From positions 1-33,118 of the forward strand of contig JAJFGD010000082.1 in the NCBI GenBank assembly GCA_021776315.1: DNA of 33,118 bases. The letters run 5' to 3'. Each line of letters starts with the position of its first letter. Within the stretch, counting starts at the first letter, position 1. The position numbers were made by a program, and so were the translations under genes. The notes beneath the pieces were generated by a model that worked only from the letters and a program-made list of their open reading frames with translations, was not told where the DNA came from and did not search any database. This document shows, piece after piece, positions 8,242-12,456 of this stretch. The stretch comes from Hyphococcus sp. (GTDB lineage Bacteria > Pseudomonadota > Alphaproteobacteria > Caulobacterales > Parvularculaceae).

Positions 8242-8538
8242 TTATGATTGTGTGAGTGCGCCTGTTACAAGCTTAAACGGGCTGATTTCCACGCCTTCAA
8301 ATAACCCAGCTTTCTCATAGGGGTCGTTTTCCACGAACTTCCTTACCTCTGCCTCGTCGGTGGTCTCGAGGATAAATAGGCTTCCATTTGGATTGCCCTC
8401 AGCGTCGAGCATTGGACCTGCCACCAAAACGGTAAGCGGGGCGGCCGCAACATAATCGAGATGGGCCGCGCGGGTCGCCTTGCGCAATTCAAGGCTGTCC
8501 TTTTTATCGAGACACCGTAGGACAAATTTTTGCATCAT
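8242..8538 (-). CDS. YciI family protein
   Basis: A 98-residue YCII-domain protein, a ferredoxin-like fold of about 95 residues with unclear enzymatic role. Typical features are the QKFVLRCLDK first strand, the R-x-x-H-L-D-Y pattern, VLVAGPMLD, and the FVENDPYEKAGLFEGVEI block with its conserved D-P-Y/F. It overlaps the gpsA stop by four bases (ATGA), so it is translationally coupled to gpsA; this gpsA-YciI pair is common in Alphaproteobacteria. Two ATG codons stand in tandem; either may be the start. Confidence 0.9.
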   Translation of the reverse strand: MMQKFVLRCLDKKDSLELRKATRAAHLDYVAAAPLTVLVAGPMLDAEGNPNGSLFILETTDEAEVRKFVENDPYEKAGLFEGVEISPFKLVTGALTQS

Positions 8539-9545
8539 TTTGTTTCCGTCTTAATGGGGCGAGCGAGAAGGTCAGTGACAATCTGATCGACAGATTTGCC
8601 GCCATCCACAAGGGCCGCGACAGCAGCGCAAATGGGCATTTCCACGCTGGCTTTTGCAGCTAAGGCGATAACGGCGCTCGCGCTGGCGACACCTTCACTC
8701 ACCGTGTTGCGTTCTTCTAATACATCTTTGAGAGTACGTCCTTTCCCCAGCTCAACCCCCAAGGACATATTGCGCGACTGAATTGAGGATGCGGTCAAAA
8801 TCAGGTCGCCAAGCCCGGAAAGTCCCGCCATGGTTTGCGGGTTAGCACCAAGCGCGACACCGAGCCGTTGGAATTCAGCAAAGCCGCGCGCGATCAAGGC
8901 AGCCCGGGCGCTTTCGCCAAAGCCGCGCCCCTCAACCACACCTGCCGCAATGGCCAAGACATTTTTGATTGCGCCGCCGAGTTCTGCGCCGATCAGGTCT
9001 GTCGACAAATAGGGGCGGAAATGCGTGGCCCCAACCGTTGCGGCCCATCGACGTCCAAGGGCTTCATCTGCACAAGCAAGGGTCACCGCTGTTGGTAGCC
9101 CCCGCGCAACATCGCGCGCAAAGCTCGGCCCCGAAAGAACGGCGGCCCGGGCTTGGGGCCATACGTCGGTTAATGTCTCTGTCATGAGCAAACCGGTTTT
9201 TTGTTCAATCCCCTTACAACACAGTGCGATTGGGACATGTGGAGACGCAAATTCTCTCAATTCACTCAAAACGGCGCGGGCATATTGTGCAGGACTGACA
9301 AAAACAATCGCTTCTGCATTGGCGCAATCGGCAAGCGATGACGTCGCACTCAGATTGGGGGCGAGAGGCACATTTGGCAGAAAGCTCGTATTTTCATGCT
9401 TGCCGTTTATGGCGGCAACGACGTTTTCTTCGCGCGCCCAGATGGTTGTTGTGGCCCCGTTCACAGAACACAATTGCGCGAGGGCGGTACCCCACGCACC
9501 GCCGCCGACAACGAAAATGGAGGCAAATGGCTGAGGGTCGCTCAT
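8535..9545 (-). CDS. gpsA: NAD(P)H-dependent glycerol-3-phosphate dehydrogenase
   Basis: Makes sn-glycerol 3-phosphate from dihydroxyacetone phosphate for phospholipid synthesis. The 336-residue protein has the N-terminal dinucleotide motif VVGGGAWGTALA (12-23), the LCCKGIE block with Lys111, SGPSFARDVARGLPTAV (138-154), and Lys194 in ELGGAIKNVLAIAAG, the expected catalytic lysine. A Shine-Dalgarno AAGGAA lies 6 bases before the ATG. It heads a minus-strand operon with the YciI gene and is divergent from the TetR gene. Confidence 0.96.
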   Translation of the reverse strand: MSDPQPFASIFVVGGGAWGTALAQLCSVNGATTTIWAREENVVAAINGKHENTSFLPNVPLAPNLSATSSLADCANAEAIVFVSPAQYARAVLSELREFASPHVPIALCCKGIEQKTGLLMTETLTDVWPQARAAVLSGPSFARDVARGLPTAVTLACADEALGRRWAATVGATHFRPYLSTDLIGAELGGAIKNVLAIAAGVVEGRGFGESARAALIARGFAEFQRLGVALGANPQTMAGLSGLGDLILTASSIQSRNMSLGVELGKGRTLKDVLEERNTVSEGVASASAVIALAAKASVEMPICAAVAALVDGGKSVDQIVTDLLARPIKTETK

Positions 9546-9552
9546 AGGTTCC

Positions 9553-9584
9553 TTGCCGAATGACGATTGAACGGTTTATATAAT
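9553..9584 (+). promoter_or_regulatory. Possible promoter of the TetR gene
   Basis: TTGCCG (9553-9558), an 18-base gap and TATATA (9577-9582), overlapping a TATAAT at 9579-9584, stand 30-60 bases before the TetR start in the gap shared with gpsA. The -35 match is only moderate. Confidence 0.35.
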
Positions 9585-9616
9585 AGTCAAATTAACCAAT
9601 TGCAGAAGAGCCGACA

Positions 9617-10261
9617 ATGCCAGCAGAGCATTTGGATGAGACCGCGACCGCAATATTAAGCGCCGCTAGCCGTCGCTTTCTCCACTATGGCTACGGTAAA
9701 ACGACAATGTCTGAGATCGCCAAGGACTGCAATATGTCCACGGGGAATCTCTATCGCTATTTCCCGTCTAAGTTGGATATTGCCGAGATGTTCGTTCGGG
9801 TTCTGCGGGGTGAGCAAGTCGAAAACCTTCGGGCGGTCTTGCAGATGTCAGATCGATCGCCAGCGGAAAAGCTACGTGATTTCTTCTTGCTAAAGTTCAA
9901 GATCGCCTATGACCGCTTCCACGATAAGCCAAAGGCCTACGAACTTTCATCTGAACTTTTGTCCCAGCGCCCTCAAGTGGCGGTCGAGTGGGAGAACGCC
10001 GAAGGCCGAGTGCTTTCGGAAATTTTGCAGATGGGCACGGTCGCAAAAACCTTCGCGATTGATGATTTCGCTGGAACCACCAAAATCTTACAAGATGCTG
10101 CCTACCGGTTTACCAGCCCTGCAGTTTTTCATGAGGGCGAATTTGAAGCCCTGGCCATAGAACTGAATGGCGTTATCGACCTCATATTAGATGGCTTCGC
10201 CTTTCGGGCTGCGCGTAAATGGGGTTCCGAAAACCAGATTTCCAAGGCCCAAGCAAACTAA
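9617..10261 (+). CDS. TetR family transcriptional regulator
   Basis: A 214-residue regulator. The N-terminal helix-turn-helix is clear: AASRRFLHYGYGKTTMSEIA, with recognition helix MSTGNLYRYFPSK (40-52 or so). The C-terminal ligand domain (60-200) is diverged, as usual. It lies divergent from gpsA and is not in an operon, with an A+T-rich gap behind it. Its target and ligand are unknown; gpsA and its own gene are the nearest candidates. Confidence 0.92.
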   Translation: MPAEHLDETATAILSAASRRFLHYGYGKTTMSEIAKDCNMSTGNLYRYFPSKLDIAEMFVRVLRGEQVENLRAVLQMSDRSPAEKLRDFFLLKFKIAYDRFHDKPKAYELSSELLSQRPQVAVEWENAEGRVLSEILQMGTVAKTFAIDDFAGTTKILQDAAYRFTSPAVFHEGEFEALAIELNGVIDLILDGFAFRAARKWGSENQISKAQAN

Positions 10262-10274
10262 TTTTTAGTTTTTT
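10255..10274 (+). terminator. Weak terminator at the TetR stop
   Basis: AAACTAA (10255-10261) pairs with TTAGTTT (10265-10271) and is followed by more T. The stem is A+T-rich and includes the stop codon, so it is probably inefficient. Confidence 0.4.
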
Positions 10275-10329
10275 CTGCTAATAAATTTGGGATGCTTTTC
10301 AAGCAAGTTACCGCTAAATCACATATCAT

Positions 10330-10347
10330 ATTGAATTTATTGAATTT
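10330..10347. repeat. Tandem 9-mer ATTGAATTT x2
   Basis: Two exact adjacent copies in the A+T-rich stretch upstream of the promoter at 10409. No other element was recognised in 10275-10408. Confidence 0.6.
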
Positions 10348-10408
10348 TATATCGTCCACTTAAGATTAATTTTGAACAGAAAAAAATGAACATTAACGAT
10401 TTTATTCA

Positions 10409-10437
10409 TTGACAACCTTTCAATGGGCTCCTATCTA
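10409..10437 (+). promoter_or_regulatory. Strong sigma-70-type promoter
   Basis: TTGACA (10409-10414), exactly 17 bases, then TATCTA (10432-10437). This is the best promoter match in the window. It points at the 39-codon ORF (10536) and the terminator at 10746, giving a predicted transcript of about 340 bases starting near 10444. Confidence 0.6.
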
Positions 10438-10535
10438 GACTTCATCGTCGATTGGATAAGGCTTCCCCAGCAAATTTCATCGGCGGCCAAAAACAAAACC
10501 GATATCAACAGATCAGAATCTAGAAAGTCCCGACC

Positions 10536-10655
10536 ATGACATCGTCAATTATAAATTTTGCCCTTCAACTCAGCGTTAGCCTGGTTTTAACCGGCGTCCT
10601 GGGTGCCGCGCTTTTGGGCGTTGCTGATTTCGCAACCCAAGGTGTGATTGCTTAA
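10536..10655 (+). CDS. 39-residue single-span membrane protein candidate
   Basis: A short ORF starting MTSSIINFALQ and ending ATQGVIA, with a hydrophobic stretch over residues 8-30 that would span the membrane once. AGAAAG about 8 bases before the ATG is a weak ribosome site. Support comes from its position inside a complete transcription unit: strong promoter at 10409 and strong terminator at 10746, with no other gene between TetR and Rrf2. I do not recognise it. Small one-span proteins of this kind are common and rarely annotated in Alphaproteobacteria. The unit might act as an RNA instead (see the C-rich tail). Confidence 0.5.
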   Translation: MTSSIINFALQLSVSLVLTGVLGAALLGVADFATQGVIA

Positions 10656-10745
10656 CGAGTTCCCTCCCGAGACCCCTAAATCGCTGACGAACGTCCCCTC
10701 ATCCCCTGACTGGACGACTTTCCCTACCTCGCAGCGATTGTACCT
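10656..10745 (+). other. C-rich untranslated tail
   Basis: Between the small ORF and the terminator the sequence repeats short pyrimidine runs (CCCTCCC, CCCCT, CCCCTCATCCCC, CCCTACC). Unpaired runs of this type are seen in alphaproteobacterial small RNAs that bind Shine-Dalgarno regions, so a regulatory role is possible. Confidence 0.35.
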
Positions 10746-10784
10746 AGCACGGAAGCCGCCCCCCGGTTTCCGTGCTTTTTTTTT
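10746..10784 (+). terminator. Strong rho-independent terminator
   Basis: A 13-bp stem (10746-10758 with 10764-10776, one G-T pair) with a CCCCC loop, followed by a run of T to 10784. It ends the small transcription unit that begins at about 10444. Confidence 0.85.
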
Positions 10785-10867
10785 GGAAATGGTTTCGAGT
10801 TCACGAAATCGTAAATCGTGTTGAGCAAAGTATGGCCTAGTTTAACCAAATTGTTAGAAATAGTGTG

Positions 10868-10890
10868 TATGTAACCAACAAAGTTACATA
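10868..10890. promoter_or_regulatory. Inverted repeat operator candidate for Rrf2
   Basis: TATGTAAC (10868-10875) and GTTACATA (10883-10890) are perfect 8-base arms with a 7-base spacer, ending 14 bases before the Rrf2 start codon. TGTAAC-type arms suit Rrf2-family regulators, and the position suits self-repression. Confidence 0.6.
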
Positions 10891-10904
10891 AGGGTAAATT
10901 CACC

Positions 10905-11333
10905 ATGCCCACGTCAAGTCGTTTTGCCGTAGCGGTGCACATTCTCACCTATCTGGCGCGTGATCGAAAGCGAGCGCACCGATCTGAAGAAATTGCTGGC
11001 AGCATTTCAACCAACCCAAGTGTTGTCCGTCGCATATTGGGTGACCTTGCGCGTGCAGGGTTAACGACCTCGCAATTGGGAAAAGGCGGCGGCGCCTTAT
11101 TAGCCCGCGGCCCAAAAAAGATTTCACTCCTCGAGATATTCAACGCCGTTGAGGATCAAAGCCTTGTCGCGATGCATCGCACACCGCCATCCAGGTCCTG
11201 TGATATCGGACGCACCATCCAACCAGTATTGCAGTCGATTACCAAAACCGCAGAGGATGCGTTTTTTGCGGAATTGGAAACCTATTCCCTAAAAGATGTG
11301 GTGCGATCGGTGCAAACGGCCGCGGCGGCTTAA
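10905..11333 (+). CDS. Rrf2 family transcriptional regulator
   Basis: A 142-residue winged-helix protein. The N-terminal segment SSRFAVAVHILTYLARD, the helix-turn-helix with SEEIAGSISTNPSVVRRILGDL, and LGKGGGALLARGPKKISLLEIFNAVE are typical of Rrf2, closest in look to the YwnA-like subgroup. Only one cysteine (in SRSCDIG) stands where iron-sulfur members such as IscR and NsrR have three, so it probably does not hold a cluster. A palindrome lies directly upstream. No target gene follows; tsaD converges with a 4-base gap, so it may act on distant genes. Confidence 0.9.
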   Translation: MPTSSRFAVAVHILTYLARDRKRAHRSEEIAGSISTNPSVVRRILGDLARAGLTTSQLGKGGGALLARGPKKISLLEIFNAVEDQSLVAMHRTPPSRSCDIGRTIQPVLQSITKTAEDAFFAELETYSLKDVVRSVQTAAAA

Positions 11334-11337
11334 TCCG

Positions 11338-12456
11338 TCAGGCTTTTGGGCCTTTTCGCCCACTCCCAAAAGCAGCGCCCTCAGTCGATGGTGCTAGTGG
11401 CCAACGCGCCCGTGGTGCCATGCTCAAGGCGTCTTCCCCATGATCGACCAAACCAGCAGCCAAACGTTCAGCGCCTGCCCATGCGATCATCGCACCATTG
11501 TCTGTGCAATATTTCGCAGGCGGCGAAACCAATTTCCACCCTCTGGATTCACAAAGAAGACCCAGCGTTGATTTAATGGCGCAATTTGCGGCAACACCAC
11601 CGGCCACAACCAAGTGTCGCGCCGTATCACCATAATCAGCCTCGACCATTTCCATCGCATTTTGTGTTCTGTCACTTAAATGCCGAGCCGCTGCAAACTG
11701 AAACGACGCCGCTAAATCGGCGACGTCTTGCCCGGTGCGTGGGTCGGTGTTTTCCGCCGTCTCTCTCAGCGCTGTTTTCAATCCTGAGAAAGAAAAATCA
11801 CAGCCAGCACGTCGCGCTAAGGGGCGCGGGAAATCAAATCGGTCGGCACGCCCACCAGTTGCCGCGGATTCCACCTTGGGTCCTCCTGGCTGTCCAAGGC
11901 CCAAAAGCTTCGCTGTTTTGTCAAACGCTTCTCCCGCTGCATCATCGATGGTCGTGCCGAGCCGCCGATAGTCACCAAGGCTACGGACGTCGATCAGCTG
12001 GGTATGGCCGCCGGAAATTAAAAGTAACAAATATGGAAAGGGCGCTGTTTCCGTCATGCGAGCAGAAAGGGCGTGTCCTTCTAGATGATTCAGGGCAATT
12101 AACGGTTTTCCGTGGGTGATACTGATGGCTTTTGCCGTGGTCAGCCCAACCATGACGCCGCCAACGAGGCCAGGCCCTGCGGTCGCTGCCACAGCGTCGA
12201 TTTTATCAAGCGAAATGCCGGCTTTAAGCAGAACTTTCACGACAGTTTGATCAAGGCGCTCCACATGGCTACGAGCCGCGATCTCCGGCACGATACCGCC
12301 AAAAGCCGCGTGGTCGTCATGTTCAGTCCAGACCTCATTGGAAAGAATGTGGCAGGCACCATCGGGCGCGCGGCGGATAATGGCCGCGGCCGTATCATCG
12401 CAACTGGTCTCGATCCCGAGGACGATTACATCCTTTGAAGTCGTTTCTACACTCAC
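11338..12456 (-). CDS. tsaD: tRNA threonylcarbamoyladenosine synthase catalytic subunit TsaD
   Basis: Transfers the threonylcarbamoyl group to A37 of ANN-decoding tRNAs. The 372-residue protein has LGIETSCDDT (13-22), the metal motif HLEGH with His124 and His128, and the LISGGHT and VAGGVAANCAIK nucleotide-binding blocks. Translation starts at a GTG at 12456; AAAGG lies about 10 bases upstream. It is divergent from hemD. In many Alphaproteobacteria hemC occupies the position between tsaD and hemD; here it is absent. Confidence 0.95.
   Translation of the reverse strand: MSVETTSKDVIVLGIETSCDDTAAAIIRRAPDGACHILSNEVWTEHDDHAAFGGIVPEIAARSHVERLDQTVVKVLLKAGISLDKIDAVAATAGPGLVGGVMVGLTTAKAISITHGKPLIALNHLEGHALSARMTETAPFPYLLLLISGGHTQLIDVRSLGDYRRLGTTIDDAAGEAFDKTAKLLGLGQPGGPKVESAATGGRADRFDFPRPLARRAGCDFSFSGLKTALRETAENTDPRTGQDVADLAASFQFAAARHLSDRTQNAMEMVEADYGDTARHLVVAGGVAANCAIKSTLGLLCESRGWKLVSPPAKYCTDNGAMIAWAGAERLAAGLVDHGEDALSMAPRARWPLAPSTEGAAFGSGRKGPKA

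Follow-up and report, generated by a model that had tools for sequence, protein, structure and literature searches.

Annotation easily overlooks small proteins and small RNAs (sRNAs) alike, and RNAs that combine the two roles have been characterized in few bacteria, among them VcdRP in Vibrio and SR1 in Bacillus. The locus studied here raises the question of whether a gap between two regulator genes of a Hyphococcus sp. genome (family Parvularculaceae; an assembly of 3,316,332 bases) holds a gene at all and, if it does, whether this gene works through a protein, through an RNA, or through both. The gap lies in a 33,118-nucleotide stretch of DNA (the window; all positions refer to it), between a TetR-family regulator gene (9617 to 10261, forward strand; Pfam TetR_N, E 9.3e-14) and a gene predicted to encode an Rrf2-family regulator (10905 to 11333, forward strand). 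An original prediction, made from the letters of the window, proposed a small membrane protein or a regulatory RNA. Conservation among relatives supports each half of this proposal and speaks against the "or": the locus is better described as a single dual-function unit, probably a transcript that encodes a one-span membrane protein and carries a 3′ sRNA with loops resembling the anti-Shine-Dalgarno sequence, perhaps under the control of TetR.

Layout of the unit

The gap contains, in this order and on the forward strand, a promoter, a 39-codon open reading frame (ORF), a C-rich tail, and a terminator. The promoter TTGACA-N17-TATCTA (10409 to 10437), with TTGACA at 10409 to 10414 and TATCTA at 10432 to 10437, had been placed correctly by the original prediction, and it is well conserved: TTGACA is kept in all 25 loci of the genus and TAT follows exactly 17 bases on in 24 of them. 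A generic promoter scan of positions 9600 to 11600 lists no promoter-like site on either strand. It misses this one because it demands a T at the last position of the −10 box; the case for this promoter therefore rests on conservation. If transcription starts 8 bases past the −10 box, the 5′ untranslated leader would span 10445 to 10535 (forward strand), and the same rule gives leaders of 72 to 122 bases in the 25 loci. A hairpin may form near the transcription start in the leader of the window, and the leaders of many relatives contain an A-rich stretch similar to ACAAGAAACGA.

The ORF (10536 to 10655 with its stop codon, forward strand; MTSSIINFALQLSVSLVLTGVLGAALLGVADFATQGVIA) has the 39 codons and the single hydrophobic span that had been described. 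It is followed by the tail, whose repeated C-runs are indeed there (TTCCCTCCC, ACCCCT, and GTCCCCTCATCCCCT), the first two forming a C-rich lead-in (10656 to 10680, forward strand) before the first helix. The intrinsic terminator (10746 to 10784, forward strand) combines a stem of 13 pairs around a C-rich loop of 5 bases (10746 to 10776) with a run of eight T, again as proposed. In the window alone, each of these features could have arisen randomly from promoter-, ORF-, and terminator-like sequence, and between 9600 and 11600 the scan gives fewer promoter-like and terminator-like sites than shuffled sequence does. Nevertheless, 25 genomes show these elements in one and the same order, with covarying stems, which leaves a chance assembly with a negligible probability; a chance ORF behind a chance promoter is ruled out by conservation. 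The complete small unit in the gap is thus confirmed, on firmer ground than when it was first claimed, and several of its properties had been absent from the first reading, namely a conserved block upstream of the −35 box, a constant TetR neighbor, and conservation of both protein and structure.

Distribution and gene neighborhood in the genus

With positions 10380 to 10800 as the query, blastn matched 18 of the genus's 27 other genomes; of 32 genomes from other genera, none matched. In each of the 20 loci found in this way (19 genomes, including that of the window), tblastn recognizes the ORF in the same place, and the order of genes is gpsA (where the contig reaches it), TetR, the ORF, usually Rrf2, and tsaD. 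The named records that carry the ORF (15 loci) are filed as Marinicaulis sp., Parvularcula sp., Parvularculaceae bacterium, and Alphaproteobacteria bacterium. When 19 ORFs were combined into a profile, it matched 25 of the 28 genomes of the genus, once in each, at E 0.01. The three genomes without a match (G005, G018, and G020) are not counted as absences, the locus being unreadable in all of them: in G005, two contig ends hold the neighboring genes, one gpsA with the initial 39 residues of TetR and the other tsaD; in G018, 5 bases separate the end of tsaD from a contig end; and G020, although rated 100% complete, has no match to the window's gpsA or tsaD at E 1e-20. In this last genome the two genes may be masked, missing, or very divergent.

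In each of the 19 genomes tested within the genus, counting that of the window, the TetR gene stands beside the unit. Rrf2 is the usual downstream neighbor, which does not imply membership in the unit, and no match to it was found near the unit in 5 of 19 genomes (L010, L011/L020, L012, L015, and L017). Moreover, gpsA directly adjoins tsaD in three genomes of three genera without the unit (G028, G029, and G033). Judging from this gene order, TetR, the unit, and Rrf2 therefore look like an insertion between old neighbors (8535 to 12456 in the window).

The small ORF evolves as a protein

To decide between protein and RNA, the original prediction had suggested comparing the conservation of codons with that of stems in relatives, and both turn out to be conserved. 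On the codon side, (i) the reading frame is kept, with pN below pS in 300 of 300 pairs among 25 sequences (means of 0.280 and 0.613; the pairs are not independent of each other); (ii) variability is highest at third codon positions (0.407, compared to 0.237 and 0.164 at the other two); (iii) the length is 38 or 39 residues in all 25 copies of the genus; and (iv) seven residues are invariant over 19 sequences. Each of the 34 small ORFs read, in the genus and outside it, encodes one hydrophobic span (best 19-residue mean of at least 1.74). In locus L044 a stop codon interrupts the frame after an upstream in-frame ATG, which favors the start codon used here. These patterns of substitution indicate that the ORF evolves as a protein, and one that resembles no known family in our searches: the window copy has no Pfam or NCBIfam match up to E 1, the 19 members reach only E 0.016 at best in Pfam, and the searches of Pfam, NCBIfam, and PDB with the small protein gave at best E 0.0097, with weak, hydrophobic matches.

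Type I toxins are generally small proteins with a single hydrophobic span. Given that the peptide fits them in both respects, it could be conceived as a toxin restrained by an RNA, but the conserved RNA is encoded downstream of it, in sense and not in antisense orientation, and the unit is present in one copy per genome and keeps the same chromosomal neighbors in 19 genomes. The scan also shows no antisense promoter-like site, a weak argument since it misses the unit's own type of promoter as well. Together, these observations make a type I toxin-antitoxin pair very unlikely.

The tail evolves as a structured RNA

Behind the ORF, the RNA is modeled as two stem-loops, of which the second is the terminator. 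Hairpin 1 (10681 to 10737, forward strand) consists of an outer helix (10681 to 10690 paired with 10729 to 10737, with one bulged A) and an inner helix (GTCC at 10693 to 10696 paired with GGAC at 10712 to 10715, forward strand), which delimit a C-rich apical loop (10697 to 10711) and a 3′ internal loop (10716 to 10728), both on the forward strand. The tail (10650 to 10784) folds at −44.3 kcal/mol, compared to a mean of −23.68 kcal/mol for shuffled sequences (z of −6.65; 0 of 200 shuffles as good), and the whole 343 bases fold modestly better than shuffles (z of −1.87; 6 of 100 as good). A covariance model built from seven copies matches the tail in all 25 loci of the genus, its own seven sources included, with E 1.4e-7 or better; another 18 matches are weak (E 0.002 to 0.37), and every one of them falls on the opposite strand of one of these tails.

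In the alignment of the 25 loci (24 of them distinct), 99.0% of the cells are paired, compared to 90.8% in shuffles, and pairing drops to 32 to 46% when the structure is shifted by one to three columns. Changes on both sides affect 14 of the 24 pairs, compared to 6.1 in shuffles, which is the stem side of the comparison suggested by the original prediction; double-change cells number 51, compared to 11.0 in shuffles, and 97, compared to 23.3, when nine loci of other genera are added. These numbers should be read knowing that the alignments A6 and A7 were fitted to the covariance model, which favors the structure. Compensated changes occur in all nine pairs of the outer helix and in 5 of 11 modeled pairs of the terminator. 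The four-pair inner helix has no double change, either in the 25-locus set or with the nine loci added, so that covariation gives it no support. The pattern of compensation indicates that the tail evolves as an RNA, although part of this conservation could serve termination or mRNA stability only.

The RNA outside the genus

Searching 62 genomes of the family with the covariance model gave a match at E 0.01 or better in 36. Four of these matches (those in G077 and G028 and the second ones in G015 and G063; L090 to L093) were dropped after reading: the 330 bases upstream of them contain no such promoter or block, and the short frames there were taken as parts of other genes. There remain 34 genomes, namely 25 of the genus, eight of the nine of a second genus, and one of a third. 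A draw of 384 other genomes from the class gave no match at E 1e-4. The nine loci of other genera keep the order of promoter block, small ORF, and RNA, and TetR is within the stretch read in eight of them. In G065, TetR stands by gpsA and the unit by tsaD about 13 kb away (L124, L130, and L089), both being kept together with the block. The remaining genome of the second genus, G064, has no RNA match in the 1,250 bases beyond tsaD, and its unit may have been lost, moved, or become too different.

The small ORFs of these nine loci have 31 to 40 codons and one span, and the ORF profile recognizes those of G031 and G060 and misses the other seven; for these seven, kinship would rest on place, length, and hydrophobicity, and we do not claim homology. 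A peptide that has become too different for the profile while the RNA persists is what one would expect if only the RNA mattered and the ORF were a leader whose translation controls or protects it. Against such a leader stand the excess of pS over pN in every pair, the constant length of 38 or 39 codons, and the seven invariant residues within the genus, and we consider it unlikely.

Loops stay C-rich while stems change

Between species the stems are rewritten, and the motifs CCCC and CCTCCC in the unpaired segments are preserved. CCCC stands in the apical loop of all 34 loci, and CCTCCC in the 3′ internal loop of 32 (24 of 25 in the genus and 8 of 9 outside it). The window copy is one of the two exceptions, and the only one in the genus, with TTTCCC in place of CCTCCC; in our reading, the CCCTCCC of its lead-in may substitute for the missing motif. 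C-runs are frequent in the lead-in of the relatives as well (CCCC in 18 and CCC in 23 of 25 loci), and the C content reaches 52% in the apical loop, 54% in the internal loop, and 75% in the terminator loop, compared to 24% in the spacer. In RNA form the internal motif is CCUCCC, which we take to resemble the anti-Shine-Dalgarno end of 16S rRNA. The likeness to sRNA loops that pair with ribosome sites, drawn by the original prediction, thereby stands as an analogy, since the loops stay C-rich as the stems change; this combination of varying stems and constant loops is evidence, drawn from relatives, as to which segments of the RNA are the working ones.

The same combination bears on whether the tail is more than a stabilizing 3′ UTR with its terminator, attached to a small membrane protein that alone matters. 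Hairpins at 3′ ends stabilize mRNAs, a terminator is required in any case, and the ORF is clearly under protein-type selection, all of which would fit such a role. Yet a stabilizer needs stems and not particular letters in its loops, and here it is the stems that change and CCCC and CCTCCC that stay; in addition, there are the seven loci of other genera where the model finds the RNA and the profile misses the ORF. On balance, a protein with a purely stabilizing tail appears rather improbable.

A conserved block next to the promoter

Immediately upstream of the −35 box lies a block of 22 bases, TGAA-N14-TTCA (10387 to 10408; no strand assigned), a candidate operator singled out by its conservation. 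It reads ATGAAYATT...TTCA just before the −35 box, its ends are kept in all 25 loci of the genus, and the same spacing is found in eight of the nine loci of other genera. Since the block was chosen by its ends, 8 of its 22 positions match by construction; the 14 bases of the interior have on average 5.12 palindromic matches, compared to 4.23 in shuffles, and six or more matches in 12 of 25 loci, compared to 36% of shuffles. Given that the interior is hardly more symmetrical than shuffled sequence, we regard it as a conserved block and not as a proven operator, and the weakness of the palindrome is the reason why we put TetR control as possible only.

In the genome of the window, the pattern TGAAYATT-N10-TTCATTGAC has one perfect match, which is this block, one site with two mismatches, and 22 with three. 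These 24 sites within three mismatches compare with 3 for a reversed control, but a spacer one base shorter gives 32 sites, compared to 2 for its reversed control, so there is no excess special to the right spacing. No TetR gene was found in 17 genomes without the unit, a result that carries no weight, as this search missed the fragment in G005 and had no positive control. Constant neighborhood and the conserved block are compatible with the adjacent TetR acting as a dedicated regulator of the unit, with binding to the block predicted; this control is possible and is the weakest step of our proposal.

Proposed mode of action

With the ORF under protein-type selection and the RNA under structure-type selection, the unit shows the two kinds of selection expected of a dual-function RNA. 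From the one conserved promoter and the one terminator we infer a single transcript of about 340 bases, which would start at the promoter (10409 to 10437) and end at the terminator (10746 to 10784). It would give two products: a protein of 38 to 39 residues, predicted to reside in the membrane through its one span, and a 3′ sRNA of about 100 to 130 bases, either processed from the mRNA or acting within it. Through its CCCC apical loop, its CCUCCC 3′ internal loop, and the C-run of the terminator, the sRNA may base-pair with other mRNAs at G-rich ribosome-binding regions and reduce their translation, as is the case for the sX13 and ar14 sRNAs. TetR may repress the promoter via the block beside the −35 box, in which case both products would appear together when its ligand is present. 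The conservation of the unit lets its protein and RNA halves be tested separately, with a constant regulator next door.

Comparison with known systems

No Rfam family matches the unit at the gathering score, with nine loci also scanned, and an open-paper literature search for Parvularculaceae and small RNA returned no paper. Two RNAs that we liken to the unit by mode only come from Caulobacter, which we take to belong to the same order as the window's organism. According to the available parts of their reports, GsrN targets a G-tract of katG with a C-rich loop and raises its main target (PMC5869019), ChvR pairs with mRNA leaders through its stem-loops 2 and 3 independently of Hfq (PMC6237742), and those parts describe an ORF for neither.

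As far as the available text goes, the alphaproteobacterial ar14 (NfeR1)/cuckoo RNAs vary in their stems and keep an unpaired anti-Shine-Dalgarno motif, and they have a sigma-70-type promoter with a conserved upstream stretch (PMC10746234). The unit resembles them in that its stems change while its loops stay. Unlike ar14, with three hairpins that each carry an unpaired CCUCCUCCC, the unit is modeled with two stem-loops, of which one contains an inner helix, its RNA comes after an ORF, and none of the loops of the 34 loci holds CCUCCUCCC or CCTCCTCCC. The Rfam ar14 model (RF02344) matches two copies from another genus at E 1 with 31.5 bits (L083) and 27.4 bits (L086), below its gathering score of 58.8, and has no match in the window (10300 to 10900) up to E 5 or in the congener L022 at E 1. 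With these scores, and with motif and hairpin number differing, we do not assign the unit to ar14/cuckoo.

The sX13 RNA of Xanthomonas has three stem-loops, and its loops of four or five C repress, independently of Hfq, mRNAs that carry G-rich motifs close to their start codon, as stated in the accessible part of its report (PMC3771888). The unit shares C-rich loops with sX13, and by analogy action on G-rich sites is proposed for it too. Unlike the unit, sX13 adjoins polA and has no ORF described in that part of the source (PMC3771888). Its model (RF02232) matches the window tail over its whole length with 22.6 bits (E 0.042); the gathering score being 50, membership was rejected.

For the layout, the closest precedent by analogy is ccaF1-ccsR (CIN1) of Rhodobacter sphaeroides, where, in the available text, a small-protein gene is cotranscribed with sRNAs up to a Rho-independent terminator and RNase E cuts the transcript (PMC10253847). 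The protein described there is an RNA-binding DUF1127 protein of 71 residues, the CcsR RNAs are four in number, and an RpoHI/RpoHII promoter is used (PMC10253847), whereas the unit has a 39-residue predicted membrane protein, one RNA, and a sigma-70-like promoter. No DUF1127 is among the Pfam and NCBIfam matches of the 19 members up to E 1, and membership in this group was discarded. The order of promoter, ORF, RNA, and terminator fits in 34 loci, in which ORF and RNA would be cotranscribed.

VcdRP of Vibrio cholerae joins a 29-residue protein and a base-pairing part in one RNA, with four consecutive cytosines required, and is repressed by CRP, in the account given by the available sections of its report (PMC8672173). 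The unit has a TetR neighbor instead, and we liken the two by description only; with this proviso, VcdRP, sX13, and GsrN are the closest precedents for its action by analogy. Pos19 is referred to, in a partially available source, as a coding sRNA of an alphaproteobacterium.

Peptide genes with C-runs in another family of the order

Among 299 genomes of the order, the covariance model has four weak matches outside the family, and three of the four lie in or behind genes of one-span peptides of about 30 to 34 residues. In a genome of family f3 (L121 in G298), a weak match downstream of an unrelated, longer gene consists of a C-rich hairpin and then a terminator whose loop is also C-rich. A second profile, built from five of the peptides of about 30 residues, matches 35 of the 299 genomes at E 0.001, with up to 23 matches per genome; all but one of the 35 belong to a single family (f4; L144 to L171). 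It has no match in the genome of the window, and five f4 members lack any Pfam match below E 0.25. By means of a letter pattern, 38 peptide copies were picked from 28 of the 30 loci returned. A C-run follows within 35 bases of the stop codon in 28 of the 38, a terminator within 130 bases in 30, and both in 27; by comparison, a C-run follows 48 of 279 frames of at least 60 codons in the same loci.

The f4 peptide genes are either kin of the window's unit or a parallel case. We offer, as a tentative generalization, that tiny membrane-peptide genes may have been joined repeatedly in this order, each on one transcript, to anti-Shine-Dalgarno RNAs, with one copy in Parvularculaceae, perhaps switched by TetR, and many in f4. 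If this were true, peptide-encoding RNAs directed against ribosome sites would be a regulator class of their own, and the peptide would perhaps bring the nascent RNA to the membrane. Inspected by eye, many of the 26 copies listed (17 of them aligned) have last codons ATC GTC GCN that stand opposite a GCGACGAT-like run located downstream, with the C-run between the two, so that the end of the peptide (Ile-Val-Ala-stop) looks like one arm of a C-rich hairpin in many copies.
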